This document shows, one piece after another, positions 3,885 to 27,120 of a stretch of DNA of 38,466 nt; position 1 is the stretch's first letter; every line of letters begins with the position of its first letter. The translations under genes were made by a program, and so were the position numbers. The DNA lies in IMG/VR virus record IMGVR_UViG_3300038415_000108, positions 1 through 38,466 of that record; one strand, 5' to 3'. The DNA is from a virus. The notes under the pieces were generated by a model. It searched no databases and was not told where the DNA came from. It worked only from the letters and a program-made list of their open reading frames with translations.

Positions 3885-3930
3885 GGGCGGGCGGGATGGC
3901 GGCAAGGGTAGTGCTGTTGAGGGCAGGGGC

Positions 3931-3990
3931 ATGGTGATGTTCCTGCTCTACCGGCTGGTTTTGCAGTTTGTTTGGAAACTCGAATGTTGA
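3931..3990 (+). CDS. Possible 19-residue hydrophobic peptide
   Basis: The reading frame runs from ATG 3931 to TGA 3988-3990. The peptide is strongly hydrophobic (MVMFLLYRLVLQFVWKLEC), and a purine-rich AGGGCAGGGG stretch precedes the start. Its stop overlaps the next likely start at 3984, which has no Shine-Dalgarno of its own, so coupling is possible. Chance cannot be excluded at this length. The rest of 3885-3983 shows nothing I recognise. Confidence 0.28.
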   Translation: MVMFLLYRLVLQFVWKLEC

Positions 3991-4286: not shown

Positions 4287-4288
4287 CG

Positions 4289-4585: not shown

Positions 4586-6114
4586 TGGCTCAGCGTGCCA
4601 ACCTAACCGATCGGGCGAAACGCTATCGCGCTCAGAACACGGTACGAGGTGAGCGCCGCTGCGTTCTGTGCGGCTCTCGTCGTCAGTTGGGGGTTATGCA
4701 TTTGGACGGGAACGAAGCAAACGGAGAGCTTCAGAACCTCGCCTATGGGTGCCGGTCCTGTAACGGGAAGCTGGCGGTGGCATTCAAGCGGATAGGCGCC
4801 GGAGTTCCGACGAATCAGTACAACCCGGCGAAAGGCGGGGTACCGACTTTTGCGCAGTACGCTTGGGCTGTCTCGCAACAGCAGCACTCAGGCGAGCACG
4901 GGGAAGCTGGCGCGATGATCCATGCCACCCCGAGGTCGAAACGAATCGAGTACGCGCGGCGGATTGCGGATTTGAAGTCTTCCCGCCGTAACCTCTGGCC
5001 TTTCTCCTCGAAAGCCACGTCTCCGCGTCAAACCATGCCCGCCAGCGCCCGCAGCGCGTCGCGGTATGCTCCCGCACATACTGCGGCGCGCGAGATCTCG
5101 CAGACCTATAAAGGATACCGGGTGTACGGGTCGGACGAGGCGGGCTGGCGTACATCCTTGGGTGGTGGTGATTCGCTGTTTGACTCGGAAAAGGACGTGA
5201 AAGGCTTCATCACATCGTGGAATCGCAAAAACAGGGGTCCGCATTCGAGGCTCGGAGCTGAGGTTGACTCCATCAACCGAGAGATTCTGGGAACTACGGA
5301 TGCTAAAAAGATGAAAAGGCTTTTGGAACGGCGCGACGAGCTTGTCCAGAAGACTTTGAACCCGGGTCAGAGTTCTTTCGCGCGGTGTGTTGCGGCTGTA
5401 TCAAGGCGCGGCGATGTGGACGATCCTAACGCAGTGTGCGCGGCCTCCAAAAGGCGTACCCCAGAAGGCGCGGCGGAATTGCAGCGAGCGGCCGCGAAAG
5501 GGCGGCGGAAGAACGTGGACCCTACCATGGCTGCCATACTGGGCCAGGAGTTCATGAAGCTGGGTGTGAAGCTCAAGAAGAAGGCGACACGGAACCCCGC
5601 AGACGCGGCGGCCTCGATGTACCAGAAGTTCCACGGTCGGCCGTCCGGTGAGCTGGTGGAAGTCGAAAAGCCAGTTCACTACCACGCGCACCTGGCCGCC
5701 CTGGGCGAGCTGGAGAAGCTGACTGTGCGCGCGAACGACGGGGGTCTGGTGGACTTGGAACGGTTCGGAGACGCGGTGCTGTGCTCGAATGAGCGCGGAA
5801 CGCAGCTCTACATCGAAGGCGGGGACCAGGCGGTGAAACTCTCAGCGTTTGGAATAGGGAAGCCGTATCACGACATTGAGGACCTGGGGGAAGTGGTGAA
5901 GCTCTGGTACTTCACGGCCAAAGACCACTTGGGAGACCAGGGCGGGGAAGCATCCTACCACCACAAGCTCTCCGAAGAGGGCAAGACGCGCATGTCCTAC
6001 GGCTTTGGTGAAAGGCGCGCGCCGAAACCTCGGCTACTGTACGACGTGATGAACCAAGCGCTGGCTTTTGCTGGCGGTGAGTACTCGGTCGAACCGGAAG
6101 GGATACGAAACTGA
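4582..6114 (+). CDS. Two-domain protein: HNH/zinc-ribbon-like N-terminus and conserved phage C-terminal domain
   Basis: This encodes 510 residues starting at ATG 4582 (ATGA overlap). Residues 27-62 look like an HNH or zinc-ribbon core: CVLC (27-30), VMHLDGNEAN with His40, then CRSC (57-60). The last HNH histidine is replaced by Asn, so nuclease activity is doubtful. The middle is basic and of low complexity. From about residue 335, a domain opens with RNPADAAASMYQKFHGRP and continues with LYIEGGDQ and YHDIEDLGEVVKLWY. I have seen similar domains in uncultured phage proteins, but know no function. It lies between membrane-protein and glycosyltransferase genes. Confidence 0.7.
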   Translation: MMAQRANLTDRAKRYRAQNTVRGERRCVLCGSRRQLGVMHLDGNEANGELQNLAYGCRSCNGKLAVAFKRIGAGVPTNQYNPAKGGVPTFAQYAWAVSQQQHSGEHGEAGAMIHATPRSKRIEYARRIADLKSSRRNLWPFSSKATSPRQTMPASARSASRYAPAHTAAREISQTYKGYRVYGSDEAGWRTSLGGGDSLFDSEKDVKGFITSWNRKNRGPHSRLGAEVDSINREILGTTDAKKMKRLLERRDELVQKTLNPGQSSFARCVAAVSRRGDVDDPNAVCAASKRRTPEGAAELQRAAAKGRRKNVDPTMAAILGQEFMKLGVKLKKKATRNPADAAASMYQKFHGRPSGELVEVEKPVHYHAHLAALGELEKLTVRANDGGLVDLERFGDAVLCSNERGTQLYIEGGDQAVKLSAFGIGKPYHDIEDLGEVVKLWYFTAKDHLGDQGGEASYHHKLSEEGKTRMSYGFGERRAPKPRLLYDVMNQALAFAGGEYSVEPEGIRN

Positions 6115-6506
6115 TGCAGCGGCAGTGCATAACGAAACTCCGATTTCCAGCGGTTCTGTTTGCGTTTGTGATGTGGCTTCCCTTCCTTGCTTGGTCTCAG
6201 TCCACAGACCACGGCGCGGTTGGCGGCTCTGTTCTGGAGTTTCGGGACTGGCTCATCGTCGTGCTTCAAGTCATCTCTCTGTTCACCGTCATATTTTCGG
6301 CGGTAAAGATCATCAACCGCAACGTTCGGGAGTGGGAAGTGCGGGAACTGCGGCTGATGGCGATCGAGAAAGAACTGGACCAGATGCGAACTGCGATCAG
6401 GGATTTCTCGGGGGTTCCAGTAAAGCTGAACGATATCTCTGGTGAAATCGAAAGGCTGCGCAACCGGCTGGACAGGTTCTTGGACGCGCAGGGGGCGAAG
6501 CCATGA
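6114..6506 (+). CDS. Exported or membrane protein with coiled coil
   Basis: This encodes 130 residues starting at ATG 6114, sharing one base with the previous stop. An N-terminal signal-like helix (FPAVLFAFVMWLPFLAW) ends near SQS. A second hydrophobic helix (LIVVLQVISLFTVIFSAV) lies at about 47-64. The remainder is a charged coiled coil (EVRELRLMAIEKELDQM; ISGEIERLRNRLDRFLDAQ). The order of signal, helix and coiled coil is common in small phage membrane proteins such as spanin-like parts, but no specific family is recognised. Confidence 0.65.
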   Translation: MQRQCITKLRFPAVLFAFVMWLPFLAWSQSTDHGAVGGSVLEFRDWLIVVLQVISLFTVIFSAVKIINRNVREWEVRELRLMAIEKELDQMRTAIRDFSGVPVKLNDISGEIERLRNRLDRFLDAQGAKP

Positions 6507-6898
6507 CGTACGGCACAAGTCATTTCGTGAGCAAGGCGGCGGCGATTCGATACTACCGCGATTACGAGGGGAGCGATGCCAAGCAAGTCGTTGAGCAGAA
6601 GATTCGAGAAGGCCAAATTCATATTGGCCGGCCGCATCTGAAGCCTGGCGAAACGCTCTCTGTTGTGGATGGTGGCAAACGCTATGCGATTTCGAATCCG
6701 CGCAAGGTCCGTGGTCGTTCCACCACCTTGCGAAACATGGCCTCAGTGACCATCCGAAAGCTTCCCAATGGGGTGGTGAAGATCACCGGGCGGAAGATGG
6801 CGGGCAAACGGAACTACTCGGCTGCCCAGCGGAAGAAGATCCTCAAGCGGCGCGCTGAGAAGCGGTTCTACAGCAAGCGGAAGATGGGAAAGCGCTAA
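6503..6898 (+). CDS. Basic virion-associated protein with NPRK module (paralogue of 11436-11747)
   Basis: This encodes 131 residues (ATGA overlap). Residues 1-63 form a small domain (YGTSHFVSKAAAIRYY, then LKPGETLSVVDGGKRYAI). Residues 65-103 are a basic module, NPRKVRGRSTTLRNMASV followed by GVVKITGRKM, that is 35/39 identical to the module at the same residue positions of the 11436-11747 protein. The last 28 residues are extremely basic. DNA or RNA binding inside the particle is a reasonable guess, and no catalytic motif is visible. The same 'NPxR' signature occurs several times in the 9114-9986 protein. Confidence 0.7.
   Translation: MTYGTSHFVSKAAAIRYYRDYEGSDAKQVVEQKIREGQIHIGRPHLKPGETLSVVDGGKRYAISNPRKVRGRSTTLRNMASVTIRKLPNGVVKITGRKMAGKRNYSAAQRKKILKRRAEKRFYSKRKMGKR
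6695..6811 (+). repeat. Duplicated NPRK module, copy 1
   Basis: These codons specify a 39-residue basic module that recurs at 11628-11744 with four amino-acid changes. The DNA is also clearly similar over the same length, so this is a true duplication rather than convergence. Confidence 0.9.
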
Positions 6899-8394
6899 TG
6901 GAGCTTACCTTGGGCAAGACGAACGGTAACGACGGCACGCCGGCGAGGCGGGTATCGATCGGCATCTGTATGCCGGGTGAGTCCTTCTCCTCGGCTTGGG
7001 TGACGAACTGGACCAACCTGTTCATGTCGCTGCTGTCGAGCGGGTACGACCCGGCTCCGCTGTTCGGGTACTCCTCTTCGGTCTTCGTGACGCGTTCCAG
7101 CATGGTGCTTGAGATGCTCCATTCTCCAACACCCATCGACTACGTTTTGTGGATCGATGACGACAATATCGTCTTGCCGGAGCATTTCGCGCGGCTGAAA
7201 AAGGATCTGGACGAGTTTCCGAAAGCGGACATGGTAGCGGGCTGGTGCTGGACTGAGCCGAACATGAGGCAGGGAATGCCCCCCATCGTCTCATGTGGCA
7301 GGTTGCGGCCGGATTACACCGTGCTGCCTTTCGATGCGTCGGAGATGAAGACGGCGGCCAGGGAGAATCGGCTCTTGGAGGTTGGCTACACCGGATTTCC
7401 GGTGGTGCTGATGCGCTACGGGATGCTGGCGAAAGCAGGGGCCAATCCATTCGTGCCATTTTGCGGGGAGAACCTGCGGTGGGGCATGACTGGAGAGGAT
7501 ATTGCGTTCTGCATCCACGCTCGGGAACGGGGCGGGGCGTTGATTCTGGTCGATCCGCAAGTCAAAGTTCCGCACTTGAAGACGGCGCCGATACCGGAGC
7601 CGGTTGATCAGTTTGAAACCGTGGATCTGGCCGCTGAGCCGATGGTTCGCGCGCCGCGTCCGCGGCGGAAGTTGTTCGGGTCTGGAATCCCGCTGTTCTC
7701 GCTGTGCCATGCCACATTGAGATTCCCCGATGGCTGGCGGAACGCCTGCCAGGAGTGGTACGACCTGGCTGACAACCCCGAAGACTGTGAGTACATTCTA
7801 TGCACGGAGCAGACGGTCGAGCTTCAACGATCAAGCGTGCCGTGGGAGCATTTCAAGAAGATCAGCAACCATGATCGGCACACGGCGGTGACGGCGTTCA
7901 ATGCGGCTGGCGCTGTCGCAACGGGTAAGGTTTTGATTACTGTAGCGGACGACTGGTTTCCGCCTCCCCACTGGGATACTGAGCTGCTCAAGGTTCTGCC
8001 GGATTTGAGCGCTGAGGCTGCGGTCTGGATTTCGACGGGTGGCAACAATTCGCTGATGACATTCAACATCGTCACGAGACCGTACTACGAACGCTATGGG
8101 CGGCTGTTCTATCCCGAGTACTGGGGCATGTTCGCGGACAACGATTTTACGGATGTCGCGCGGCGGGATGGCGTCATTGTAGACGCCAAGCATTTGATGT
8201 TCCCACACCGACATCCGCTCTACGGTAAAGGGACCTGGGACGGCACGTATGCCTACCAGAATGCGCCGGAAGCGTACCAGCACGGCGCTGAGGTCTATGA
8301 GTGGCGCCGGGCGCACAATTTTGCGGACAGGGTAGGGCCGGATCATATCGAGGTTCGTCACCCGGTCAACGAGGTGCTCGTGAGCGCACCGTGA
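6898..8394 (+). CDS. Double-domain family 2 (GT-A) glycosyltransferase
   Basis: This encodes 498 residues starting at ATG 6898 (TAATG junction). The N-terminal half (about 18-230) is GT-A-like, with WIDDDN at 86-90 giving the metal- and nucleotide-binding Asp cluster, and MTGEDIAFC as the acceptor-side acidic motif. The C-terminal half (about 265-480) is a second GT-2-like unit with SLCHATLRFPDGW, VADDWFPPPHWD (Asp350-351) and FPHRHPLYGKG. Such enzymes transfer sugars from nucleotide sugars. In phages they decorate virion proteins, DNA or host surface polymers. No donor can be named. It stands just before the virion cluster, which favours glycosylation of virion or surface proteins. Confidence 0.85.
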   Translation: MELTLGKTNGNDGTPARRVSIGICMPGESFSSAWVTNWTNLFMSLLSSGYDPAPLFGYSSSVFVTRSSMVLEMLHSPTPIDYVLWIDDDNIVLPEHFARLKKDLDEFPKADMVAGWCWTEPNMRQGMPPIVSCGRLRPDYTVLPFDASEMKTAARENRLLEVGYTGFPVVLMRYGMLAKAGANPFVPFCGENLRWGMTGEDIAFCIHARERGGALILVDPQVKVPHLKTAPIPEPVDQFETVDLAAEPMVRAPRPRRKLFGSGIPLFSLCHATLRFPDGWRNACQEWYDLADNPEDCEYILCTEQTVELQRSSVPWEHFKKISNHDRHTAVTAFNAAGAVATGKVLITVADDWFPPPHWDTELLKVLPDLSAEAAVWISTGGNNSLMTFNIVTRPYYERYGRLFYPEYWGMFADNDFTDVARRDGVIVDAKHLMFPHRHPLYGKGTWDGTYAYQNAPEAYQHGAEVYEWRRAHNFADRVGPDHIEVRHPVNEVLVSAP

Positions 8395-8411
8395 GTTTCT
8401 GAAGGTTCATT

Positions 8412-8537
8412 AGGCGAGACCGGCCGGAATCGCCTGGTGATGTAGTGAACCGCAGGGCAAGCCTTCTAGAAGGGGCTGCCGGCGTTTGGGAGTTGTCATA
8501 GGCTCCTGAACGCAGGTAGCCCCTTTTGCTTTGCGGT
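8412..8537 (+). ncRNA. Structured RNA element or terminator between glycosyltransferase and virion cluster
   Basis: Two successive foldable units fill the 199-base gap. The first is AGGCGA (8412-8417) with TCGCCT (8430-8435). The second is an extended hairpin: AAGGGGCTGCC (8470-8480) with GGTAGCCCCTT (8515-8525), GCGTT with AACGC inside it, then GGAG with CTCC, all nested, followed by TTTTGCTTT. An outer pair, ACCGCA (8449-8454) with TGCGGT (8532-8537), closes it. It may be a terminator or processing site, or a regulatory RNA ahead of 8594. Confidence 0.5.
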
Positions 8538-8593
8538 GGACGGTTTTTGAGAGAAGCAAGCCCGCACGCCGGGCAAAAAGGAGAAACGAGAGT

Positions 8594-9082
8594 ATGAGCA
8601 AACTTCACAAGCTGGGCGCGGCGGCGCTGCTTTTCCTGATGGCAGTAGCCGTCGTTTTCGCCTTCAACATTCACATTTCGACTCAATCGCTGGTGGCCTG
8701 CCTGTCCATGGGGATCGCGGGGATCACGGTTACGTACCTCGACCCAACCACAGGCGGTGCCGCTCCAACCCGGGCCCAAGCTGCCAATGTGCAGAGCGTT
8801 GCGGCACAGGTAGCTTGGACAGGCACGGAGAGTGGGGCGGCCACTATCACGCATAATTTCAACGTGTCGACGGCTGCGCTGGCAGTCTTGAGGCCCTGGG
8901 TCATCGCTTACATGAGCGCTGGGGGCACGGCGTATCCGGCGCTGACGTGGGCACTCGGTGCGAACGCGTTGACTGTGACGAAGCCGGCTGCGAACGCCAT
9001 CACCGGCTCCGATTGCACGTTCAACGTGATTATCCAGAGGCCGTGGACGCCGTTGGCTTCGAATATCCCGTCCATGCCGTAA
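8594..9082 (+). CDS. Small membrane-anchored beta-rich virion protein
   Basis: This encodes 162 residues. ATG 8594 is preceded by AAGGAG, and an upstream in-frame alternative at 8531 lies in the structured leader. An N-terminal hydrophobic region (AALLFLMAVAVVFAF, then LVACLSMGIAGITV) acts as signal or anchor. The rest is beta-rich (AATITHNFNVSTAALAVL, LTVTKPAAN, CTFNVIIQRPW), an outline I associate with small phage virion proteins of unknown function. As the first gene of the virion cluster it may be a minor capsid or membrane-associated protein. Confidence 0.65.
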   Translation: MSKLHKLGAAALLFLMAVAVVFAFNIHISTQSLVACLSMGIAGITVTYLDPTTGGAAPTRAQAANVQSVAAQVAWTGTESGAATITHNFNVSTAALAVLRPWVIAYMSAGGTAYPALTWALGANALTVTKPAANAITGSDCTFNVIIQRPWTPLASNIPSMP

Positions 9083-9113
9083 CCGGATGGCGACTTTGAT
9101 CTGAGGAGGTCAC

Positions 9114-9986
9114 ATGGCTATCGCACACAGACGAGTTTCAATCGCCAACCCGGCTCGGCGCAAGTTCAGCCTGAAGCAGATCCGCGCTGGCTTCGGCGGC
9201 AAGCGCCGACAGGCTGCTGTCAAGGCGAAGCGCAGCACTCATCGTGCGCGCGCGCAGAAACGTAACACGGCTCACCGGAGACGCACCTCTCCCCGTCCGG
9301 TGAGACGCAATCTGGGAGAGCAAGTGCTGTTAACGCTGGGGAATCCCAAGAGAAAACCGGCGTCAAGGAGACAGGCAATGGCCAAAACGCGAACACATCG
9401 CGCCCGGTCCAGGTCGAATGATCCTGGCCGCAAGCGCACGAACGATCCTGGCCGGCGTCATAAGAGACGCCGGTCGTACGCAAGGCACAACCCGGCGCGG
9501 CGCTATCAGCGCCGCCGTCACCACAACCCCATGGGCGGCTCCTGGGGAGGGCAAGTCGCCCAGGCGTTGTACATCATCGCCGGGGCTGTCGGCTCGAAAC
9601 TGGGCGCGCAGATGGTCCTCGGAACCAAGAACACCGGGTTTCTGGGCTACGGCGCCAATCTGGCGGCCGGCGGACTTTTGGCGTGGGCAGCCAAGGGCAT
9701 CATGAAGAATGACGCGGCGGCAAAGGGCATCTTTGCCGGCGCGGTGGTTCAAGTGGTGCTCCGGCTGATCACGGACTACACCCCCTTTGGCCAGTATGCC
9801 AGCCTCCAGGGTGTCGGGGACTACATGGCGTCGAACTGGGTGACTCCACAGCGGTACGTGGATGGCCTGCAGTCGGCGCAAATTGAAATCCCCGATGGCT
9901 GGGGGCCGACCCCGCTGGTCATGGCTTCGTCCGGGGTCAACGCTAACGCGGTGGCCGCCGGCAGCGATGGCATGGGGGCGTTCTAG
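9114..9986 (+). CDS. Arg-rich DNA-binding-like domain fused to hydrophobic membrane domain; probable core virion protein
   Basis: This encodes 290 residues starting at ATG 9114, with a very strong Shine-Dalgarno (GAGGAGGT), as for an abundant protein. Residues 1-140 are extremely rich in Arg/Lys/His and carry repeated Asn-Pro signatures (NPARRKF, NPKRKP, NPARRYQ, HNPMGG, twice NDPGR). Residues about 145-245 contain up to three Gly/Ala-rich hydrophobic helices. The last 40 residues end in GMGAF. A basic arm plus membrane segments would suit linking genome to membrane or shell. An internal in-frame ATG at 9378, preceded by AAGGAGA, could yield a shorter product. No named family is recognised. 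Confidence 0.75.
   Translation: MAIAHRRVSIANPARRKFSLKQIRAGFGGKRRQAAVKAKRSTHRARAQKRNTAHRRRTSPRPVRRNLGEQVLLTLGNPKRKPASRRQAMAKTRTHRARSRSNDPGRKRTNDPGRRHKRRRSYARHNPARRYQRRRHHNPMGGSWGGQVAQALYIIAGAVGSKLGAQMVLGTKNTGFLGYGANLAAGGLLAWAAKGIMKNDAAAKGIFAGAVVQVVLRLITDYTPFGQYASLQGVGDYMASNWVTPQRYVDGLQSAQIEIPDGWGPTPLVMASSGVNANAVAAGSDGMGAF
9378..9986 (+). promoter_or_regulatory. Possible internal translation start in the Arg-rich virion gene
   Basis: AAGGAGA lies 6-12 bases before in-frame ATG 9378 (residue 89, MAKTRTHRA). A second product of 202 residues would keep part of the basic arm and all hydrophobic helices. Internal starts of this kind occur in phage structural genes, but here only the site is visible. 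Confidence 0.3.
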
Positions 9987-10078
9987 CTTCGGGCCGATCC
10001 GGACAACCGAGGCGCACGGTGTGCGTCGGCAGTAAAGAATTTGGGGGCTTGCGAGAGCTTGCCCCGGAGTAAAAAGAA

Positions 10079-10795
10079 ATGGCCGGAACATCAGCGCCGC
10101 AAGGCACAGTAGCGTATGGCGGGGGTTACACTCCGAATGCCCAGTCCGCAAGGGGCATGGATATCAACAGCATCATGAAAGGGTGGGTGGACCGGGGAGC
10201 GTGGATCTATTACGACACGCTGACCCAGAACGCCGGCAGCTCGGCGCTGTCGGTCTATACCCCGTTCGCCCAAGGTTTGAACCAAAACGATCAGATCAAC
10301 ACGGCTCTGATCAAGACGAAGCTGCAAACGAACCTTCCGAACGGCGGGATGTTCCTTGCGCCGCGTTGCCTGATCCTGAACCAGCTTGGCTTCTATTTCA
10401 AGGGCCAGCCGGCCACGTCGACGGCTCCCACGGCCCAGAGCATCGATTCGCTGCTGGTGGATATCCAGCAGTTCTGCTACAGCTCGTATTTCGAGTTCCG
10501 AATCGACGACAAGGTGTTCTTCGAAGGTCTGCTCGAATTCCATCCGCCGGGCATTGGCCTGTACGGGTCCTCGGAACGGCAAGGCGATGTCCACTGGGGC
10601 CTCGGCCTGCCTTCTCCGCTCGGTGTCTGGACGTTCGGCAACTTTGCGAAGTACATTGCGCCGTTGCAGAACTTCAGCCTGCAGATCAAGTTCCCCGGCG
10701 CGACTCTCCCGGCGTGGCAGACGGCTGCGAACGGTGGCCAGGGTATCACCCTGGTGACGATGATGAAGGGCTGGACGGATCGCAGCGTTCAGTAG
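10079..10795 (+). CDS. Probable major capsid protein, jelly-roll-like
   Basis: This encodes 238 residues starting at ATG 10079, with GGAG about 12 bases upstream. It is soluble, without signal or membrane helix. Past residue 80 the pattern is alternating beta strands (MFLAPRCLILNQLGFYF, YFEFRIDDKVFFEGLLEF, FSLQIKFPG) with Gly/Pro loops, and the last strand ends in MMKGWTDRSVQ. A closing strand followed by a short polar tail is common in jelly-roll capsid proteins. Size, position after the basic protein, and a strong hairpin just downstream fit a highly expressed capsid gene. No sequence signature proves it, and a minor capsid role remains possible. Confidence 0.55.
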   Translation: MAGTSAPQGTVAYGGGYTPNAQSARGMDINSIMKGWVDRGAWIYYDTLTQNAGSSALSVYTPFAQGLNQNDQINTALIKTKLQTNLPNGGMFLAPRCLILNQLGFYFKGQPATSTAPTAQSIDSLLVDIQQFCYSSYFEFRIDDKVFFEGLLEFHPPGIGLYGSSERQGDVHWGLGLPSPLGVWTFGNFAKYIAPLQNFSLQIKFPGATLPAWQTAANGGQGITLVTMMKGWTDRSVQ

Positions 10796-10802
10796 CACAG
10801 AT

Positions 10803-10858
10803 CTCCTCGCGGAGACTTCCGGCAGCCGCGTTATGGGCTCCTTCGCGCGGCTGCCGGA
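10803..10858 (+). terminator. Strong hairpin after the probable capsid gene
   Basis: TCCGGCAGCCGCG (10818-10830) pairs perfectly with CGCGGCTGCCGGA (10846-10858) around a 15-base loop, giving 13 base pairs. A smaller CTCC/GGAG hairpin lies at 10803-10814. The following T run is weak (ATTTCG), so this may be a partial terminator or an mRNA-stabilising stem that raises capsid expression over downstream genes. Confidence 0.6.
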
Positions 10859-10891
10859 GATTTCGAGTGGAAGGGGCGAGAGGATCTTGGT

Positions 10892-11206
10892 ATGTACGTG
10901 CCAGCGAATCTGCCAGCTACGGGTACGACGCCGCTTGTGGCTCCGACTATGCCGAATGGCGAGACACCGATGTCGGACAGCCGAATTTTGGCGAGCCAGG
11001 CGTACCTCTTCCGGGTCAACACGGCGGCCGACAACGCTAAGGCGGCGGTGCTCGGCTCCTGCCAGGTGCCGGTGAGCTTGACGGACACGGGCACACCGCT
11101 GTCAACGAATGCGGTGCTGGCGTGGATTCAGGCGAATCCTGGGCTGGCCCTGGGTATCGGTGCGGGCGCGCTGGTGCTGATGTCCAGTCGGAAGGGGAAG
11201 CGGTGA
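10892..11206 (+). CDS. Small C-anchored membrane protein of the virion cluster
   Basis: This encodes 104 residues starting at ATG 10892. The N-terminal 75 residues are polar and Thr/Pro-rich with little predicted helix. A Cys occurs in LGSCQVPV. One C-terminal hydrophobic helix (LALGIGAGALVLM) is followed by SSRKGKR. It lies directly after the probable capsid gene, which suits a membrane-to-shell linking protein. It overlaps the next start by four bases. No family is recognised. Confidence 0.65.
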   Translation: MYVPANLPATGTTPLVAPTMPNGETPMSDSRILASQAYLFRVNTAADNAKAAVLGSCQVPVSLTDTGTPLSTNAVLAWIQANPGLALGIGAGALVLMSSRKGKR

Positions 11207-11442
11207 CGGGGCTAGAAGTCTATCTTCGATCCGTCCGTGAACACGGGGCCTGGAATGGCGGGTTTATCGGGTGTTTTTGCGTCATTCGGGCGATGTTTCG
11301 ATGGTTGTATCGCGCTGGCTTGCGCGTCCATCCGTCGGAAAAACTCCAGATTGCTTCGCCATTTCCCGTGGCGTCCTCCGCACCATCCATTCAGAGCCAT
11401 ATGCGAGAGTATACCATAGGAAGAGAGGCGCTCGGATGGTAG
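11203..11442 (+). CDS. Possible small protein, unknown
   Basis: This encodes 79 residues from GTG 11203, which overlaps the preceding stop (GTGA). It contains a moderately hydrophobic Cys segment (FIGCFCVIRAMFRWLY) and no known motif. Its end overlaps the next gene by seven bases. The junction style favours it, but composition does not strongly separate it from the other open frames here. Confidence 0.4.
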   Translation: MTGLEVYLRSVREHGAWNGGFIGCFCVIRAMFRWLYRAGLRVHPSEKLQIASPFPVASSAPSIQSHMREYTIGREALGW

Positions 11443-11747
11443 AGTTCTTTCGACAACAGGGCTCTGATGACGGTCGCAATGCAGTTCTTGGGCGGCGTAA
11501 AATTAGGCCATCAAAAGCGCGAATGACGGTGCGGTTTCATGCTTTGCTCGAACCAGATTTTGAATCGAAGAAGGCGTACTGGGAGCGCATTTACGCGGCT
11601 GCTTACAACAGAACGGTGGGTCGAACGAACCCCCGCAAGGTCAACGGCAAGTCCACCACCTTGCGGAATATGGCCTCGGTGACGATTACGAAGCTCCCCA
11701 ACGGCGTGGTGAAGATCACCGGGCGGAAGATGCGGGGGAAGCGGTGA
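11436..11747 (+). CDS. Basic protein with NPRK module (paralogue of 6503-6898)
   Basis: This encodes 103 residues. ATG 11436 has GAGAGG eight bases upstream, so it is preferred to earlier in-frame starts. Residues 1-64 do not match the paralogue. Residues 65-103 repeat its basic module (NPRKVNGKSTTLRNMASV, then GVVKITGRKM) with 35/39 identities, and here the protein ends at the module. The module probably binds nucleic acid or another virion component. Two copies with different N-terminal domains suggest two ligands for one scaffold. This is inference. Confidence 0.7.
   Translation: MVEFFRQQGSDDGRNAVLGRRKIRPSKARMTVRFHALLEPDFESKKAYWERIYAAAYNRTVGRTNPRKVNGKSTTLRNMASVTITKLPNGVVKITGRKMRGKR
11628..11744 (+). 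repeat. Duplicated NPRK module, copy 2
   Basis: This is the counterpart of 6695-6811, and both occupy residues 65-103 of their proteins. The DNA similarity includes the stretch encoding VVKITGRKM, which is nearly identical. Confidence 0.9.
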
Positions 11748-11791
11748 TTCATGCCGCCCGTTTTGGTGTTATTCTCAAACCGGAGGACGCG

Positions 11792-12073
11792 ATGAAACGA
11801 AAAGTCGATCCGGTAGAGGAAGGGTTACGAGCAGAACGCCAGAAAGCCGAGGCGTGGCTTAGAATCCTGTGCAAAGGTGTTGGGTCGTGTCTGATGGAAT
11901 GCAGCGGGGGTTATCCCGAGGAGCTTCAAGCTGTGCTCGATGTGGTGGACAACTATCTGCGCGCTGCAATCGCTGAAGAGGAAAGATGCCAAGAGGCGTA
12001 TAAGCCTTACTGGCGTCGGCGGCGTGTACGTTACATTTCGAAGGCGAAAGCGAAAAAGGCGAAAGCAGCGTGA
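11792..12073 (+). CDS. Small helical basic protein, unknown
   Basis: This encodes 93 residues. ATG 11792 follows CGGAGG at good spacing; an in-frame GTG at 11744 overlaps the previous stop and is the alternative. It is mostly helical (VEEGLRAERQKAEAWLRIL, YPEELQAVLDVVDNYLRA) with a Lys/Ala-rich tail (KAKAKKAKAA). There are two Cys, no membrane helix and no known family. The tail codons create GGCGAA repeats like those at the candidate origin, but here they are explained by codon choice for Ala-Lys. Confidence 0.6.
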   Translation: MKRKVDPVEEGLRAERQKAEAWLRILCKGVGSCLMECSGGYPEELQAVLDVVDNYLRAAIAEEERCQEAYKPYWRRRRVRYISKAKAKKAKAA

Positions 12074-12076
12074 TCC

Positions 12077-12253
12077 ATGCCGCCATTTGTGGTCCAGTAC
12101 CTTTGCCCGCGCCAGTCTCCGTACTGGCAAGGCGGCAAGGTGGTGCCGAACTTTTGGGCCGCGGTGGAATGGGCAAAGGCCCTACGGCCCAATGGACCGC
12201 TTGGAAGGGCGCGTGTTGTGGACGCCAGAGGTGTGGTAGTCTTTCAGGTGTGA
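12077..12253 (+). CDS. 58-residue protein of the virion cluster
   Basis: The frame runs from ATG 12077 to TGA 12251-12253. The peptide opens MPPFVVQYLCPRQ and continues WAAVEWAKALRPNG, closing with ARVVDARGVVVFQV, a balanced fold with a final beta hairpin. Its composition is protein-like, whereas a competing frame from GTG 12070 is low-complexity. It lies five bases before the next start and is probably translated with it. The function is unknown. Confidence 0.6.
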   Translation: MPPFVVQYLCPRQSPYWQGGKVVPNFWAAVEWAKALRPNGPLGRARVVDARGVVVFQV

Positions 12254-12257
12254 ACGC

Positions 12258-13199
12258 ATGAAAAAAGACTCGCAGCTCATCCTCGAAGCCGATTGGGTGC
12301 TCAGCAAGTGCGGGCGCCCGACACCTCCTCGAGGAATGTCTGCGGTCTATATCCCCCATTCGTTTTTGCTTCAGAGCTTGGATCTCACAAGCGGCCAGAC
12401 GACGATTGAGAAGACGATCACTGGCGACACAACCTGGATGCTGCGCGCGATCTCGGCTAACGGTGATGTGCCGTACTGGCAAGTGATTCTGCCGAATGGA
12501 CAGCCGTTCCTGAATCAGTCCCAGCTTGTGCAGGAGGTCGCGGGCTACGGCTCCGGCCGGCTGCTGATGGCGAAACAGGTTCCGTGTCCGCCTCAGTCCA
12601 AGATCCAGGTTCGGCTGACGGCGCTGAGCGCTGCCGTTCAGATGCTGTTCGAAGGGGCCTACTGCTACTACGTCAAGTCGCAAAAGCCTTCCGAAGCGGC
12701 CGGGCCCCTGCCGCCGCAGTATTTGGACAATCCAAACCAGAACATCCTGGCACCATGCTGGATGCATGGCACAGGCCCCGCGACACCACCTGGCTACGAG
12801 GATTCGCCGTTCACGTACTGCTCTGCGGTCCCAGTCATCGGCCAGGGTTTGCAGTTCACGAGTCCAGCGGACATCTTGCAGTTTGCAACCATTGAGATTC
12901 CCATCGAAAGCGCCTCGGATTTCGTGGTGCGGCGTTTCCATTTCAACGTAACCCAGGATGCCACTGTGACGGGCGGAGAGATCCTGGCCAGGATCCGCGC
13001 GGCTTCAGGGCATGTGTTTTCGGATGACTACATCGACGTGGCTCGCTACATCGGCGGGGCACCGTACGCGCATGACTGGTGGCTGAAAGCCCAAGACACG
13101 CTCATCTTTGACCTTCAGTTGGTGGACTTCGCCGGCGTAGGGCAAATGTACCTGCAAGTCTACGTGGAAGGCGTCAAACGGCGAAAGGTGGGAGCATGA
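12258..13199 (+). CDS. Putative two-domain jelly-roll virion protein
   Basis: This encodes 313 residues starting at ATG 12258. Two beta-rich halves are visible. In residues about 30-140, TTWMLRAISA leads to IQVRLTALSAAVQMLFEGAY. In about 165-313, DFVVRRFHFNVTQ and GEILARIRAAS lead to DTLIFDLQLVDFA and MYLQVYVEGVKRRK. Each half ends in a strand followed by Gly and basic residues, a pattern repeated in the next genes. Tandem jelly-roll domains are expected in capsid and vertex proteins of tailless viruses. There is no membrane helix. It is translationally coupled to 13196 (ATGA). Confidence 0.55.
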   Translation: MKKDSQLILEADWVLSKCGRPTPPRGMSAVYIPHSFLLQSLDLTSGQTTIEKTITGDTTWMLRAISANGDVPYWQVILPNGQPFLNQSQLVQEVAGYGSGRLLMAKQVPCPPQSKIQVRLTALSAAVQMLFEGAYCYYVKSQKPSEAAGPLPPQYLDNPNQNILAPCWMHGTGPATPPGYEDSPFTYCSAVPVIGQGLQFTSPADILQFATIEIPIESASDFVVRRFHFNVTQDATVTGGEILARIRAASGHVFSDDYIDVARYIGGAPYAHDWWLKAQDTLIFDLQLVDFAGVGQMYLQVYVEGVKRRKVGA

Positions 13200-13693
13200 G
13201 TCCTTCTCTCATCGGCGTTCCGGTGCTCGGGTGCGTGGATTATCGGCCCCAGTGGTTTTATCCATCTCCACGAGGCTGCCGGGAGCAGGCGTTCAGCTAC
13301 TTCTACGATCTGTTCAATGCTGCTTACTCACCGCTCGCTGTTCTTTCAACTCAGGAAAACATTCCCCTGGCGATTGAGACCGGCTCGAAGTTCCTCTGGC
13401 GGGGCGTCCGGTTGAATCTGGGCGTTGGTATTGGCGGCATCCCCGTGACCTTGTTGGTGCGCTTCTTCGATCCGTTTGGAAACGCGCTCAGCTCGGACTA
13501 CGTGCCCGTCATTCAGTATGTCAACCCGTCCGGGAGCGCCGCTGGTGGTCTTCCGGTGCCCATAGAGCCGGAGATTGAATGCCCCCCTGGGTCAGGCATC
13601 TTGGTCTCCTTCAAAAACATCGACCCGAACAACACGGCTCAGTTGCCTGAGATCACGCTGTACGGCCTGAAGCGTTACGAGGGGGCTTTATGA
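13196..13693 (+). CDS. Putative single jelly-roll virion protein
   Basis: This encodes 165 residues (ATGA overlap on both sides). After an N-terminal arm of about 45 residues come strands ENIPLAIETGSKFLWRGVRL, VTLLVRFFDPFG, SDYVPVIQYV, GILVSFKNID and EITLYGLKRYEG. The order 'W-R-G-V/I' strand, 'R-F-x-D-P-x-G' turn, and closing 'Y-G-L/V-K' strand matches the halves of its two neighbours. I read the trio as paralogues sharing one fold. Capsid, penton or spike roles cannot be told apart from sequence alone. Confidence 0.55.
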   Translation: MSPSLIGVPVLGCVDYRPQWFYPSPRGCREQAFSYFYDLFNAAYSPLAVLSTQENIPLAIETGSKFLWRGVRLNLGVGIGGIPVTLLVRFFDPFGNALSSDYVPVIQYVNPSGSAAGGLPVPIEPEIECPPGSGILVSFKNIDPNNTAQLPEITLYGLKRYEGAL

Positions 13694-14652
13694 ACCCTCG
13701 TTTTCAGGAACGTCATCAGGACTACGTGTTGAGGATTGCGAGCCTCGCGCCTGGTGAGATCAGAACTGCGGTGCCGTTGGTGCTCGATCTTGACGCTCCA
13801 TTTGTTCTGCGGTCGCGGGCTTTCAGAGTGCAGCCACAGCAGAGCATTCAAGAAGGCATTCGCAACCTGCAGGCGGGCTTGCAGTTTCTGAAAACCAGTT
13901 TCACGGGGCCGGATGAGAACTACGTCAGCCAGCAAAGGGTTCCAGCAACCTTGCATTCGTACTGTTTTGGTCAACAGGGGAGTCCCACCCCGGTATTCCC
14001 GCAGAGTATCTACCCGGCTGGTGGCATCATCTACGTGGACGTGGAAAACGCAGGGCTGGGCACCCTCACGAATGTTCGGCTGTATTTCCGGGGCGTCAAA
14101 CTCTACGTATGGGGAAGTCGCCAAGGGGTTACGTACGCGGCCCAGCACGGCCCCATCCGGCCATACTGCTATCCCGTGATCGCCTTGCAGTTGCCTGTGA
14201 CCACGACGGCTCCGATGGTCGTTCCCTTCATCGTGCAGCCCGATGCGGATTTTGTTCTCAGGGGTGGGCGGGCTGGCACGGACAACAATCAGCAAGGCAA
14301 CAACGCCGATTATTTCGAGGTCGAAATCACCCTGCGTGATTCGGATGGTAAGCCATACTCGAATCTGCCGGTGCATGCGAGTATTCTGTTTGGACGTCCG
14401 GGTCAGGGGACTCTTGGGCAACCTGCTTACGGTTTTGGAGTTCAGGGAGAATCGTACCCGTGTGGCAGCCTCACAAACGGTCTGCTGGCCGAGTTCTGCG
14501 GGCCGTCGAATCCCGGGCTCTTCTACCCGGAGATTTACATCCAGCGAAGCCAGTTCATGTACCTGGATTTCACGCGTGCCGATGGCGCGTATGCGAACCA
14601 GTCCCCGCTTGACTTCCCGGTGTTGCTTACTGGGGTAAAGGTGCTGCCATGA
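13690..14652 (+). CDS. Putative two-domain jelly-roll virion protein
   Basis: This encodes 320 residues (ATGA overlap). The first half runs from VPLVLDLDAPFVLRSRAFRV to VRLYFRGVKLYVWG. The second runs from VVPFIVQPDADFVLRGGRAG, through FEVEITLRDSDGKPY, to LDFPVLLTGVKVLP. The phrase D-A-P/D-F-V-L-R near the start and G-V-K near the end occurs in both halves, which points to internal duplication. Its design equals that of the 12258-13199 protein. No signal or membrane segment is seen. Confidence 0.55.
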   Translation: MNPRFQERHQDYVLRIASLAPGEIRTAVPLVLDLDAPFVLRSRAFRVQPQQSIQEGIRNLQAGLQFLKTSFTGPDENYVSQQRVPATLHSYCFGQQGSPTPVFPQSIYPAGGIIYVDVENAGLGTLTNVRLYFRGVKLYVWGSRQGVTYAAQHGPIRPYCYPVIALQLPVTTTAPMVVPFIVQPDADFVLRGGRAGTDNNQQGNNADYFEVEITLRDSDGKPYSNLPVHASILFGRPGQGTLGQPAYGFGVQGESYPCGSLTNGLLAEFCGPSNPGLFYPEIYIQRSQFMYLDFTRADGAYANQSPLDFPVLLTGVKVLP

Positions 14653-15248
14653 ATCTGCCCATCAGCCCGCTGAGTCTGGACGCCTTGACGCGCGACACCT
14701 GGGGATCGTTCGATGCGGCCGCGATCCGGCAACTGGCGCCGTTGGCAGACGAGTTGTGCTACCGGCCGAGGCTGTACAAGTCGCCGGATTCGCCAAGTGA
14801 AGTCATGCCGGCCAATGGCTATGTATCGCACGGTCTGAAGATCACGCCGGGCTCGCTGATTTACGGATTCTATTTGCCGGCGGAGTTGGTTGGGTCAGTT
14901 GGTGGCGAGCTACCTCCGGGCCTTACGGCGATCACCCCGCCTCAGTTCAACGTGCAGATCACGGACACCTCGTTGGGTCACAAGCTGTTCGATGAGCCGG
15001 TGCCGTCGCTTTTCCTTGCGAATTTCAAGCCGACGTACTACAGCGCCGTCTTCGTGATCGCGGGGTCATTTCCAAACCTGCTCTGCGCGCCCTATCCGGT
15101 CGTCGGCTCGGGGCTGTTCATGGTTGAACTCTGGAACACGGCAGGGTACCTAAATGCTGGCGGCGCATTCGTGGGAGTTCAGCAGCGCGTTGAGCTGGTC
15201 ATCGGCACGCTGGAGCCATTGCCGGCTGGTGAGGAGGGCTGCCAATGA
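14649..15248 (+). CDS. Putative beta-rich virion protein
   Basis: This encodes 199 residues (ATGA overlap). Strands and loops include VSHGLKITPGSLIYGFYLP, FNVQITDTSLGHKLFDEP, YYSAVFVIAGS, LFMVELWNTAG and VGVQQRVELVIGTLEPLP. It lacks the 'DFVLR' phrase of its neighbours but closes with a strand-Gly-x-Leu-x-Pro end. Its place inside an unbroken overlapping row of structural genes supports a particle role. The family is not recognised. Confidence 0.5.
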   Translation: MNLPISPLSLDALTRDTWGSFDAAAIRQLAPLADELCYRPRLYKSPDSPSEVMPANGYVSHGLKITPGSLIYGFYLPAELVGSVGGELPPGLTAITPPQFNVQITDTSLGHKLFDEPVPSLFLANFKPTYYSAVFVIAGSFPNLLCAPYPVVGSGLFMVELWNTAGYLNAGGAFVGVQQRVELVIGTLEPLPAGEEGCQ

Positions 15249-15787
15249 GTCCGATGCGTAGAGGAAGGCCACTTTACGGTGTGCCAGAGGTGAGCACCGT
15301 TGCTACCATGTTGCCGCGCGATCCAAGGTTGCGCGATCCGGTCTGCGGGCCGTCGCTGTCGCCGTCGCAAAACGCGATTGACATTTACGTGTCGAACTCC
15401 CTGGCGGCGCCCGCTCCGACAGTCTTGACCGTGCTGCTGTCCTACCAGGTACCCAGTGGCCACCAGTTCGCGCTCACGGGCGTGATGTGGAACTTTGATC
15501 CAGTGGGAGGCTTCATACCTGGCTCCGGTGACATCATCTGGACGCTGGATGTGAACAACCCCTTGACGCCTTCGGCTCTGGCGATCGCGGGGCGCTATGT
15601 CCAGGGTTTCGGTGCGGAGTTGGCGCCGATCGGATCCTACGAGATTCCGTGGCGGTTCTCGCGGCCGCGGATCTTCGCACCGTCCGATCTGATCCAGTTG
15701 AAGGTTCTGACGACCATAGCGATCGTGCAGAACTCAGGGAACTTCAACAGCCGGTTTATCGGGTATCTCTGGCCGGCCGGGGAGTGA
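15245..15787 (+). CDS. Putative jelly-roll virion protein
   Basis: This encodes 180 residues (ATGA overlap). Beta strands TVLTVLLSYQVPSGHQFALTG, DIIWTLDVNN, SYEIPWRFSRPRIF, DLIQLKVLTTIAIV and NSRFIGYLWPAGE form the usual eight-strand outline, with a final strand-Gly-Tyr-Leu-x-Pro. A spike or minor shell protein is likely from context. It ends the jelly-roll row. A lytic enzyme follows four bases after the stop. Confidence 0.5.
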   Translation: MSPMRRGRPLYGVPEVSTVATMLPRDPRLRDPVCGPSLSPSQNAIDIYVSNSLAAPAPTVLTVLLSYQVPSGHQFALTGVMWNFDPVGGFIPGSGDIIWTLDVNNPLTPSALAIAGRYVQGFGAELAPIGSYEIPWRFSRPRIFAPSDLIQLKVLTTIAIVQNSGNFNSRFIGYLWPAGE

Positions 15788-15791
15788 CGTC

Positions 15792-16313
15792 ATGTACTGG
15801 CGCACAGTGCGGCGGGGACTCGGGGCGACTTCCACAAGCATTCAGAGCCTCATAACCTCAGTAGCGGATCAGCTCGGCGTACCGCCTTCAATCGCTGTTG
15901 CCGTAGCGCAAAAGGAGTCGAGCTTCAACCAGAACGCGGTGGGCTCAGCCGGGGAGATTGGCGTCTTCCAGCTCATGCCGGCGACGGCAACCGCGCTGAA
16001 CGTCAACGCCTCGGATCTCACCCAGAACGTTGAGGGCGGCGTTTCGTTGCTGGCTTCGCTGTACCAGCAGTTCGGGAACTGGAGCGATGCGCTGGCGGCC
16101 TACAATGCCGGGCCTACACATCTGGCGGCGGGGCAGTCCTACGCGTCCAGCATCCTCGGAAGCATCAACGTGGATTCGACACCCTCGGATAGAATCATGG
16201 CGGATCTCACGGACGGGCTGCCAGATCTCTCGAGCGATTCGGGCACAAGCCCCTGGGTATGGGTTGGCTTGGCCGTGGCGGGGCTGGGGCTACTCTGGTG
16301 GGCCACGGCTTAG
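15792..16313 (+). CDS. Membrane-anchored lytic transglycosylase (SLT family)
   Basis: This encodes 173 residues. The SLT domain spans about 17-125. AVAQKESSFN places catalytic Glu42, and GEIGVFQLMPATA and AAYNAGP are the standard family motifs. These enzymes cut the glycan strand of peptidoglycan and leave an anhydro end. The N-terminus, MYWRTVRRGLGATS, carries the same RGLG as the membrane-protein cassette (residues 8-11). A C-terminal helix (WVWVGLAVAGLGLLWWA) anchors the protein. Sharing that signature suggests it is a virion component that opens the wall at entry or exit. Confidence 0.9.
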   Translation: MYWRTVRRGLGATSTSIQSLITSVADQLGVPPSIAVAVAQKESSFNQNAVGSAGEIGVFQLMPATATALNVNASDLTQNVEGGVSLLASLYQQFGNWSDALAAYNAGPTHLAAGQSYASSILGSINVDSTPSDRIMADLTDGLPDLSSDSGTSPWVWVGLAVAGLGLLWWATA

Positions 16314-18530: not shown

Positions 18531-18790
18531 ACTCAAACCAGTGGATCGCTTTAGAGTGTCTAGGCGTCTTGGCGATCATCGGTCTGGCGTCATTCTTTTG
18601 GGAACCGAAATATGGCGTTGGCTTGGGGATGATAATCGGGGCCATCATCGCAGCGCTGAACAATGCACTGGGCGTGCAGTCTGGCTCTCATTTGCCGGAG
18701 CAGGCGGGGGATGCCAAGCCCGGGCAGTCTTCACAGACTGAAACCACGAGCAAAACTACTACGCAGGCTCCGCCTGAGGCGACGAAGTAA
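18515..18790 (+). CDS. Two-helix membrane protein, holin candidate
   Basis: This encodes 91 residues starting at ATG 18515 (ATG 18527 is possible). Two hydrophobic helices (WIALECLGVLAIIGLASFFW and GLGMIIGAIIAALNNAL) are joined by a short loop, and a polar Gln/Thr/Ser tail follows (TETTSKTTTQAPP). It lies immediately before the SleB-type hydrolase (ATG overlap at 18790), the usual holin-endolysin order. No holin family signature is visible. Confidence 0.55.
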   Translation: MPSKMNSNQWIALECLGVLAIIGLASFFWEPKYGVGLGMIIGAIIAALNNALGVQSGSHLPEQAGDAKPGQSSQTETTSKTTTQAPPEATK

Positions 18791-19191
18791 TGGGCGCCGC
18801 GGACTCCTACCAGCCCTTCCTTGCTGCTCTTTGTCTTTGGCGAGAGGCACGGGGCCAATCGGACGATGCGAAGCGGGCCGTACTCCACGTGATTCTGAAT
18901 CGCGCGGCCACTGGTTTTCGTGGAAGCGATCCGGCCTCGGTGATACTGTGGCCGTATCAGTTCTCGAGTTTCAACCCGAAAGATCCGAACGCGGCCCGGC
19001 TACCAGATCGGCGCAATGTTGGAGATTGGCGTGCCTGGTTGGCCTGTTGTGCGGTGGTGGATGTTCCTGGGGATGACCCTACTGGGGGTGCTTTGATGTA
19101 CGAGAGCGCTTCGTTTGCCATGCGGCCAGACTGGGCCACTGCTGAAAAGCAAACGGCTGAAATCGGGCCTTTCAGGTTCTATCGAGCCTGA
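18790..19191 (+). CDS. Cell-wall hydrolase of the SleB type (endolysin candidate)
   Basis: This encodes 133 residues. CLWREARGQ (Glu19) with AVLHVILNRA is the signature of the SleB/CwlJ hydrolase family, which cuts peptidoglycan glycan strands. FRGSDPASVILWPYQFSSFN matches the substrate-groove segment, and GGALMYES the later conserved strand. There is no signal peptide, so export would need the neighbouring holin-like protein. Together with the membrane-bound transglycosylase this gives two wall-cutting enzymes. It ends six bases before the convergent secreted-protein operon. Confidence 0.85.
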   Translation: MGAADSYQPFLAALCLWREARGQSDDAKRAVLHVILNRAATGFRGSDPASVILWPYQFSSFNPKDPNAARLPDRRNVGDWRAWLACCAVVDVPGDDPTGGALMYESASFAMRPDWATAEKQTAEIGPFRFYRA

Positions 19192-19741: not shown

Positions 19742-21097
19742 TCAGTTCTCAGTGTAGTACCATGCTTGCGCGAACAGCAGACAGGTGCCAGAGAAGCTCA
19801 CGCGCGCAGTAACGCCGCATGTCCAAGTCATTTTAATCCCCGTATTAAAAACAATTGGATCTTGTATGAAAAAGCGCTGTGCACCGAAGGTGGGTGGCGC
19901 ATCAAACGTCAGTGCGATATCTTCCGACGAAGGGGCAAGGGTGGTATTGTATCCCGAGCCAAAGTTATTAAGATGCTGGAAGTACCAGGGCATTCCAAAG
20001 AAATCTTCGCTCCCTGAAGTTCTGTAAGCTGCGGTTCCAGATCCATCAATATAGATCTTGAATGGGCCTTCTAGAGGTCCTGTCGATGGGCTAGCGCCGC
20101 CGGGAGCCCCATCGTAAATCCAGCCGACTCCCACCAACCGGCCACGCTTGTTGGGGGTCACATCCAGAATAGTCCCCTCTGTGTCCTCGGCCATTCCTGC
20201 AACGTAAGCTTCGGAGTTGTAAAGTCTTTGCGTATATATCCAGTTGTCGGTGATCCCGGTGTGATACACCACATAGCTTGCGATGCCAACAGTGTTGGCG
20301 GAATTATTCTTGGCCTGGATGAGAATCGACGAAGAGAATGGGATTGGGATGCGGAACAGCCCGCCGCAGTTGTTGGCTCCGTTATTTCCGCCACGTATCC
20401 ACTTTCCTCCCCAAGATGGGCTTATGTCACACAGCCCATCTCCTAAGAACGTCTGAACGCTATATGCGGAAATTGACGGAGTGGCTTCTCCATCCACTGT
20501 GACGGTGATTGCGATGGGGCTTTGGTTCACCGCGACAAATATCTCGCTCACATATCCAGATCCGGTTACAGTAGCGAGTAGAGTTCCCGTCGCGCCTGCG
20601 CCTAGAGTCTGACTGCCGTAATACGTACCCATGACACCTGCGGGTTTGCTCGATGAGAAGATGTCTGTGATCTGCTGTTGCGCCACGGCCCCAGTAAGGC
20701 CATTGATGCTAGTAACTCCGCCACTCGCCGCGTTTCCGGTTTGTCCCTGCATCTGCCAATGCGAAGCGGCATCCATGCAGACCAGAACTCGACCGTTGGC
20801 TAACAGATCGTTGGCCACAAGCGCCGCGCCGTTCTGCTGCTTCGTGATTCCGAGAGCCGCAGCGCCGTTGACTGCCAGGGTGGGCGATGCGCCACTGGCG
20901 ACATCCGCCACCAGCAGAACGCAGTCGTTTGCGGCTGGGGTGAAGGTCGGAGAAGTGGCACAGGTGTAAGTGGTACCTGAACTGGAAGCTGCTGGACACG
21001 CCAGATGTGCCCCGATGTTGCTCCGAACTACGGGATTCTGAGCACATAACCATCCTGCGGCCACTGCGAGATAAACCAGGGGGAGAACGCGTTTCAT
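19742..21097 (-). CDS. Secreted DUF2961/GH172-like protein, fibre or spike candidate
   Basis: This encodes 451 residues starting at ATG 21097, chosen because it begins a clean signal peptide (MKRVLPLVYLAVAAGWLCAQ) and overlaps the upstream stop. The N-terminal third is a low-complexity fibre-like lead (VTSINGLTGAVAQQQI). From about 180 the DUF2961/GH172 pattern appears: VTVDGEATPSISA, LFRIPIPFSSSILI, FKIYIDGSGTAAYRTSGSED, then AQRFFIQDPIVF. GH172 enzymes act on fructofuranosyl sugars, and their double jelly-roll fold is a published cellular relative of double jelly-roll capsid proteins. Whether catalytic Glu residues are kept cannot be settled here. A glycan-binding spike is my preferred role. 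Confidence 0.72.
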   Translation of the reverse strand: MKRVLPLVYLAVAAGWLCAQNPVVRSNIGAHLACPAASSSGTTYTCATSPTFTPAANDCVLLVADVASGASPTLAVNGAAALGITKQQNGAALVANDLLANGRVLVCMDAASHWQMQGQTGNAASGGVTSINGLTGAVAQQQITDIFSSSKPAGVMGTYYGSQTLGAGATGTLLATVTGSGYVSEIFVAVNQSPIAITVTVDGEATPSISAYSVQTFLGDGLCDISPSWGGKWIRGGNNGANNCGGLFRIPIPFSSSILIQAKNNSANTVGIASYVVYHTGITDNWIYTQRLYNSEAYVAGMAEDTEGTILDVTPNKRGRLVGVGWIYDGAPGGASPSTGPLEGPFKIYIDGSGTAAYRTSGSEDFFGMPWYFQHLNNFGSGYNTTLAPSSEDIALTFDAPPTFGAQRFFIQDPIVFNTGIKMTWTCGVTARVSFSGTCLLFAQAWYYTEN

Positions 21098-27082: not shown

Positions 27083-27120
27083 CAGCGCTCCCACAGGCTC
27101 AGCAACCCGTTGTTGCTGGC
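27082..27120. repeat. 39-bp direct repeat, copy 2
   Basis: This is the counterpart of 26801-26839. It encodes the last residues and stop of the GIY-YIG endonuclease. The two copies flank the 26801-27082 gene. Confidence 0.9.

Follow-up and report, generated by a model that had tools for sequence, protein, structure and literature searches.

The window analysed here, the 38,466-nucleotide IMG/VR record IMGVR_UViG_3300038415_000108 (positions 1 to 38,466), is a circular genome, and the virus that it encodes is probably a tailless one of bacteria, from an undescribed lineage, with a shell built from a single jelly-roll major capsid protein (MCP) encoded at 10079-10795 (+), vertices or spikes formed by a family of downstream paralogues (JR), a membrane, and motor-free packaging by the basic protein encoded at 9114-9986 (+). 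Genes are named below by their lowest coordinate. A further-reaching proposal, which we offer tentatively and at somewhat less than even confidence, is that the window and its relatives form a bacterial lineage of family or order rank, characterised by a single-gene jelly-roll capsid, no motor, genomes of 33-56 kb and a histone-like membrane protein in the motor's place. We infer a virion membrane, a double-stranded DNA genome, the form of the capsomers, the roles of the JR proteins, a protease role for a transglutaminase-like enzyme, and motor-free packaging.

The record carries a direct end repeat of 254 bp at 99% identity, and a 374-amino-acid open reading frame (ORF) starting at 37918 crosses the circle junction and ends within 1-830. 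Because the ends are repeated and this ORF reads through them once joined, the map is circular, as the original prediction had proposed: the genome is a complete circle with 38,212 bp of unique sequence. Pfam matches in the genome are to an SLT transglycosylase, a SleB-type cell-wall hydrolase, a GT2 glycosyltransferase, an FkbM-type methyltransferase and a DUF968 protein, and no tRNA gene was found in the 38,466 bases. As peptidoglycan hydrolases are encoded, a bacterial host with a peptidoglycan wall is likely, and no other feature fixes the host.

As a sole query, 10079 recovered one relative (95%) and found no match in plasmid records or GTDB genomes; direct queries of phage records with 10079 (by tblastn), 12258, 13690, 9114 and 31508 gave no match. 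Relatives were reached from the transglutaminase-like gene, whose alignment led to G002, which encodes a 43% homologue of 10079, and to G003; successive capsid alignments then led to more genomes. A degenerate DNA pattern of the transglutaminase active-site motif matched only 12 IMG/VR contigs, 10 of them already known and two new, both of which also encode the capsid gene, and a second DNA pattern, of a capsid motif, again matched almost solely group members. The comparison set comprises 13 genomes (the window and 12 relatives), and the lineage has at least 13 members. End repeats of 40-254 bp are present in 12 of the 13, whose sizes span 33.0-56.2 kb. The common gene order is 34473 (-) and 36214 (-), then, divergently, the transglutaminase-like gene, 827, 4309, in some cases a glycosyltransferase, 8531, 9114, 10079, three JR genes, 14649 and 15245; seven of these families occur in all 13 genomes and four more in 12, with 34473, 36214 and 14649 not detectable in G003. 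The six ORFs singled out by the original prediction (10079, 12258, 13196, 13690, 14649 and 15245) are all present, and their families recur in the same order in 12 or 13 genomes. The 13 genomes make up a real, coherent and apparently undescribed group; a literature search of open-access papers returned no description of it.

The member without an end repeat is G012 (IMGVR_UViG_3300037116_000081; 85.9 kb), in which the virus block occupies about 5-38 kb, a 1330-amino-acid ORF of tape-measure size lies past 53 kb, and a terminase match lies at 84 kb, some 66 kb from the capsid gene. Because this contig is about twice the usual size, lacks the end repeat and has tail genes only beyond 53 kb, it is likely a chimera, and we rejected its tail genes as a sign of a tailed phage.

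The putative MCP, 10079 (238 amino acids), is found in all 13 genomes; its homologues are 205-238 amino acids long and keep about 40% identity, and between the window and the related genome G001 the gene shows 17 synonymous and 1 nonsynonymous codon changes. An AlphaFold (AF2) model of the relative L025, which is 43% identical, computed from a 17-sequence alignment, is beta-rich (pLDDT 72, pTM 0.70) and consistent with a single jelly-roll. Its Foldseek neighbours in the PDB, with E-values of 0.004-0.05, are headed by single jelly-roll proteins: a luteovirus coat protein (3.9e-3) and, second-best, VP4 of the archaeal portoglobovirus SPV1 (Sulfolobus polyhedral virus 1; 6oj0; 6.5e-3, probability 0.97), then C1q/TNF domains and picorna-, bromo- and sobemovirus coats, and no HK97 protein is among the top 50 PDB matches. 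In BFVD the top fold match is I1ZBH9 (2.3e-4, probability 1.00, TM 0.43), a protein of 211 amino acids, the same length as gp46 and gp35 of Salisaeta icosahedral phage 1 (SSIP-1), of which gp46 is a tentative identity for this accession. Profiles of the capsid and JR families found no significant match in Pfam, PHROGs, NCBIfam or PDB; VDAC matches of the capsid profile (best E 0.18) were dismissed as chance, and ORFs conserved on the strand opposite the capsid gene (10091-10798, -) were taken as shadows.

The original prediction described the six proteins as beta-rich, partly duplicated and joined by shared phrases. A one-domain JR profile built from 13196-like proteins matches 12258 (12258-13199, +) twice, at residues 10-134 (5e-10) and 164-309 (6e-11), and 13690 (13690-14652, +) twice, at 12-139 (1e-8) and 158-317 (7e-4), bearing out the predicted internal duplication of two genes; it finds a single domain in 13196 (13196-13693, +), and the other genomes show a similar one- and two-domain pattern. 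By sequence, these three genes are true paralogues. The shared phrases accordingly hold for 12258, 13196 and 13690, are marginal for 15245 (15245-15787, +; in 13 of 13 genomes), whose hhalign comparison with the JR family gave a probability of 19% (E 0.0012), and fail for 10079 and 14649 (14649-15248, +; in 12 of 13 genomes), for which profile comparison found no sequence relation to the JR family. We therefore rejected a single sequence family of capsid and JR proteins, and the many capsid-like paralogues once proposed reduce to three demonstrable ones, with the structural model of beta-rich folds extending to the 10079 family only. The JR family is present in all 13 genomes, usually in three copies, and diverges to mostly 15-32% identity with the window copy. 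Between the window and G001 there are 48 synonymous and 11 nonsynonymous codon changes in 12258 and 35 and 8 in 15245, and the six ORFs of this row are under purifying selection.

Among the genes of alphasphaerolipoviruses, those for the MCPs rank with the best conserved, and those for vertex proteins are conserved least (PMC5332951). Because 10079 is well conserved and the JR proteins poorly so, in keeping with that pattern, 10079 alone is most likely the MCP, its predicted single jelly-roll probably forming homohexamers, and 12258, 13196 and 13690 are most likely components of vertices or spikes, with the two-domain 12258 a candidate vertex, spike or minor capsid protein.

The original prediction reported no terminase, portal or Walker-A ATPase, and profile searches with working controls agree. 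The terminase profile PF03237 is absent from the 12 circular genomes and has its sole match in the tailed half of G012, other terminase families not having been searched individually. FtsK and DUF87/HerA profiles found no match in the 13 genomes and matched in all 14 control genomes; no core family of the group has a P-loop, and no window ORF contains a credible Walker A, its GKS and GKT sequences having been checked. The only recurrent P-loop protein in the group is an SNF2-helicase/DNA-methylase (N6/N4; fused or adjacent), found in four genomes (L009, at 3374-6232, -; G002; G003; G008) and absent from the window. Portal (PF04860) and HK97 capsid (PF05065) profiles have no match in the 12 circular genomes, but the fold search carries more weight, because both models also miss the tailed half of G012. 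The window has no ORF of tape-measure length. Neither an HK97 fold for 10079 nor a terminase/portal pair, which the original prediction had named as signs of a tailed phage, was found, and as far as sequence can tell no recognisable DNA-packaging motor is present in the 12 circular genomes. SPV1 and the bacterial virus FLiP lack a packaging ATPase too (PMC8812541).

A candidate for the motor's place is 9114, which lies directly upstream of the capsid gene in all 13 genomes and combines a basic tail with a following hydrophobic domain, for which we propose a role as DNA-to-membrane tether. The first 150 or so residues of the window protein hold 48 Lys/Arg and 3 Asp/Glu, and in the homologues Lys and Arg together make up 28-39% of the first 100-200 residues, where acidic ones number 1-3. 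This count is restricted to long homologues lying upstream of the capsid gene, since low-complexity sequence accounts for part of the single-linkage cluster that joins 9114 to other basic ORFs. By analogy with SPV1, a virus with a nucleoprotein core, 9114 would condense the genome onto the internal membrane as the shell is completed around the DNA.

An internal membrane in the virion is suggested by many tail-anchored proteins: 827 (827-1570, +; RGMG motif; in 13 of 13 genomes), 1567 (1567-2559, +; AGLGD), which overlaps its upstream gene by ATGA, 2900 (2900-3379, +; LRGMG) and 3972 (3972-4286, +; RRGLG). The motif RG[LMFIV]G occurs in 34 of 80 C-tail-anchored proteins (window 827-16313 and relatives) against 2.0 expected by shuffling, and is a candidate processing or sorting signal. 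It also lies within the transglutaminase-like enzyme, so it may be that enzyme's processing site, and the cysteine enzyme is possibly a maturation protease cutting at R-G-[LM]-G. The R-G-[LM]-G tail-anchored proteins and the anchored enzyme would most likely sit in the internal membrane.

The transglutaminase-like protein (37918-38466, + and 1-830, +) has conserved Cys, His and Asp residues, an RGMRGLG sequence and a C-terminal hydrophobic anchor, and it ties the group to SSIP-1, a tailless, membrane-containing phage that resembles the window in its size and topology, with a circular genome of 43.8 kb. Its profile matches SSIP-1 gp34, which is annotated as a structural protein, in hmmsearch (4.6e-13) and hhalign (96% probability, E 1e-9), gp34 as a single query matches individual group members (E down to 2e-5), and the Cys, His and Asp are invariant in 14 of 14 sequences. 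Pfam Transglut_core is matched by the G002 protein (2.6e-9) and by gp34 (8.9e-7), and gp34 has the same layout of enzyme domain with the invariant Cys, His and Asp, RGMG motif and C-terminal hydrophobic segment, the R-G-[LMFIV]-G motif included. On this evidence the window protein is homologous to the SSIP-1 virion protein. SSIP-1 further has in gp54 a weak SLT match with a hydrophobic C-terminal end, as in the 15792 protein, and a row of structural proteins, gp44-gp48, to which the window's row can be likened. It differs from the window in its primase and integrase, in the packaging ATPase predicted for it (gp40) and in a pair of paralogous capsid candidates (gp45/gp46); no gp40-like protein was found in the 13 genomes, and gp45/gp46 gave no sequence match in capsid and profile comparisons. 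The undescribed tailless jelly-roll lineage of the original prediction is thus supported, with the amendment that it has kin: this new lineage has a distant tie to SSIP-1, its nearest cultured cousin, itself poorly classified.

In predicted capsid economy the group resembles SPV1 (Portogloboviridae), which has one jelly-roll MCP gene for its hexamers, as the window may, and likewise is circular, with neither packaging ATPase nor polymerase and with genes for a glycosyltransferase and a methyltransferase (PMC8459092, PMC8812541). Unlike the window, SPV1 has a 20-kb genome and an archaeal host, and the capsid profile matches no SPV1 PDB chain, tblastn of phage records being negative as well. SPV1 is not known to have a transglutaminase-like protein. 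Members of Helvetiavirae/Singelaviria (Sphaerolipoviridae, Matsushitaviridae and Simuloviridae) are tailless and have single jelly-roll capsid proteins, as predicted for the window, but they have two MCPs, an FtsK/HerA-type ATPase and genomes of about 16-30 kb. Finnlakeviridae (FLiP) offers a tailless bacterial virus without a packaging ATPase, with, in contrast to the window, a double jelly-roll MCP and a 9-kb single-stranded DNA genome. Bamfordvirae (double jelly-roll) were rejected, since 205-238 amino acids leave no room for two fused barrels in the capsid candidate, whose neighbours by fold are single jelly-rolls. We place the group with the single jelly-roll tailless viruses, outside Helvetiavirae because it has no ATPase and outside Portogloboviridae because homology is lacking and the host type is wrong.

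Instead, the window might be a divergent virus within the SSIP-1/Helvetiavirae (Singelaviria) type, one whose capsid has two jelly-roll proteins and whose packaging ATPase has drifted beyond recognition; the gp34 homology and the similar circular, tailless SSIP-1 genome speak for this, as does the literature, in which SSIP-1 is grouped among vertical single beta-barrel viruses with two MCPs (PMC6356626, PMC4958249). We consider it unlikely, given that an FtsK/HerA match or P-loop is missing from every core family, as is a gp40-like protein, and that most genomes have one member of the MCP family, with clear second copies solely in G002 and G003 and no sequence match to gp45/gp46; the group has one capsid family, and the JR proteins could serve as a second MCP but are far more divergent. 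The window could also be non-viral, as a large circular element, or be a satellite that depends on another virus's particle; either would fit the missing polymerase, integrase and packaging motor and the unproven particles, but is very improbable beside the lysis enzymes, a jelly-roll capsid candidate set in an extensive conserved structural block, and the homologue of a cultured phage's virion protein. To a tailed phage in which terminase, portal and HK97 capsid have all diverged strongly we give scarcely any credence: tailed phages typically have genomes of this size and the related contig G012 also has tailed-phage genes, yet the profile searches and the ORF lengths tell against it, G012 looks chimeric and the model is jelly-roll-like. 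Next to negligible is the case for a double jelly-roll virus with the DUF2961-like protein at 19742-21097 (-) as its MCP. DUF2961 proteins are cellular relatives of double jelly-roll capsid proteins (PMC8812541) and the Pfam match is strong (1.3e-22), but the protein occurs in one of the 13 genomes, the window, starts like a signal peptide and lies outside the conserved block, and on its occurrence in that single genome it was rejected as a capsid protein. This double jelly-roll, GH172-like protein, which had no match in GTDB, is possibly a receptor-binding or glycan-degrading accessory.

Several points weigh against a tailless virus with a single capsid gene and motor-free packaging. No virion has been seen. 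The AF2 model of the window's own 10079, from two near-identical sequences, is unusable (pLDDT 36), so that the usable model is a moderate one from L025 rather than from the window protein; because the model's PDB matches all fall short of E 1e-3 and have TM-scores of roughly 0.2-0.4, the fold data back the jelly-roll class and not a specific kinship. Second, divergent capsid-like genes exist in G002 (32258-32749, -; E 3e-12) and G003 (50548-51585, +; E 1e-9). Convincing sequence homology to SSIP-1 is limited to one protein, gp34, and since SSIP-1 has the predicted ATPase gp40, a motor could be present in the group in unrecognisable form. Separately, a TAT-like signal seems to precede the second G003 copy.

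Other genes of the structural block and its surroundings include 4309 (4309-6114, +), with an HNH-like N-terminal part and a conserved C-terminal domain (family in 13 of 13 genomes); a GT2 glycosyltransferase (6898-8394, +; Pfam Glycos_transf_2 2.9e-7; 8 of 13); a small conserved protein preceding 9114 (8531-9082, +; 12 of 13); and, adjoining the capsid gene, a small protein with a C-terminal hydrophobic segment (10892-11206, +; 73% identical in G001). Downstream lie the SLT lytic transglycosylase (15792-16313, +; Pfam SLT 4.7e-23), with an N-terminal RRGLG and a C-terminal anchor, a SleB-like cell-wall hydrolase (18790-19191, +; Pfam Hydrolase_2 5.4e-10) and a possible O-like replication initiator (31508-32659, +), weakly matched by phrog_391 (E 0.011). 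On the minus strand, a small protein (34473-34991) and the 521-amino-acid divergent neighbour of the transglutaminase-like gene (36214-37779) are each conserved in 12 of 13 genomes. The consecutive genes 35475, 35750 and 36214 (35475-37779, -) share a near-identical C-terminal tail, KVVDLTGE or EVVDLTGE, and the G001 homologue of 36214 has a tail of this type.

Two further repeats were noted. A direct repeat of 119 bases at 80% (6693-6811 and 11626-11744), present as a single copy in G001, coincides with a basic C-terminal domain common to genes 6503 and 11271 (STTLRNMASVT.RKLPNGVVKITGRKM). The C-terminal tail GLLSLWER, from a 43-base repeat, is common to genes 26801 and 27082 (26801-28140, -), of which 27082 encodes a GIY-YIG-like endonuclease that contains NUMOD3 and looks like a homing-endonuclease insertion that duplicated the end of its host gene.

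If this account is true, the orphan phage SSIP-1 gains its first relatives, and annotation keyed to terminase, portal and HerA overlooks a lineage found in several metagenomes. Genomes of 33-56 kb would be far above the roughly 20 kb known for motor-less single jelly-roll viruses, which raises the question of how, with no recognisable motor, such a genome is brought into its capsid. For Helvetiavirae, Krupovic, Makarova and Koonin have proposed a portoglobovirus-like ancestor that had one jelly-roll MCP and lacked the ATPase (PMC8812541), and the ATPase-less single jelly-roll double-stranded DNA viruses, one archaeal family, have been argued to represent the ancestral state of Singelaviria (PMC8812541, PMC12714852). 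With these 13 syntenic genomes, apparently of the same type, that argument would gain a second and independent group, in bacterial viruses.

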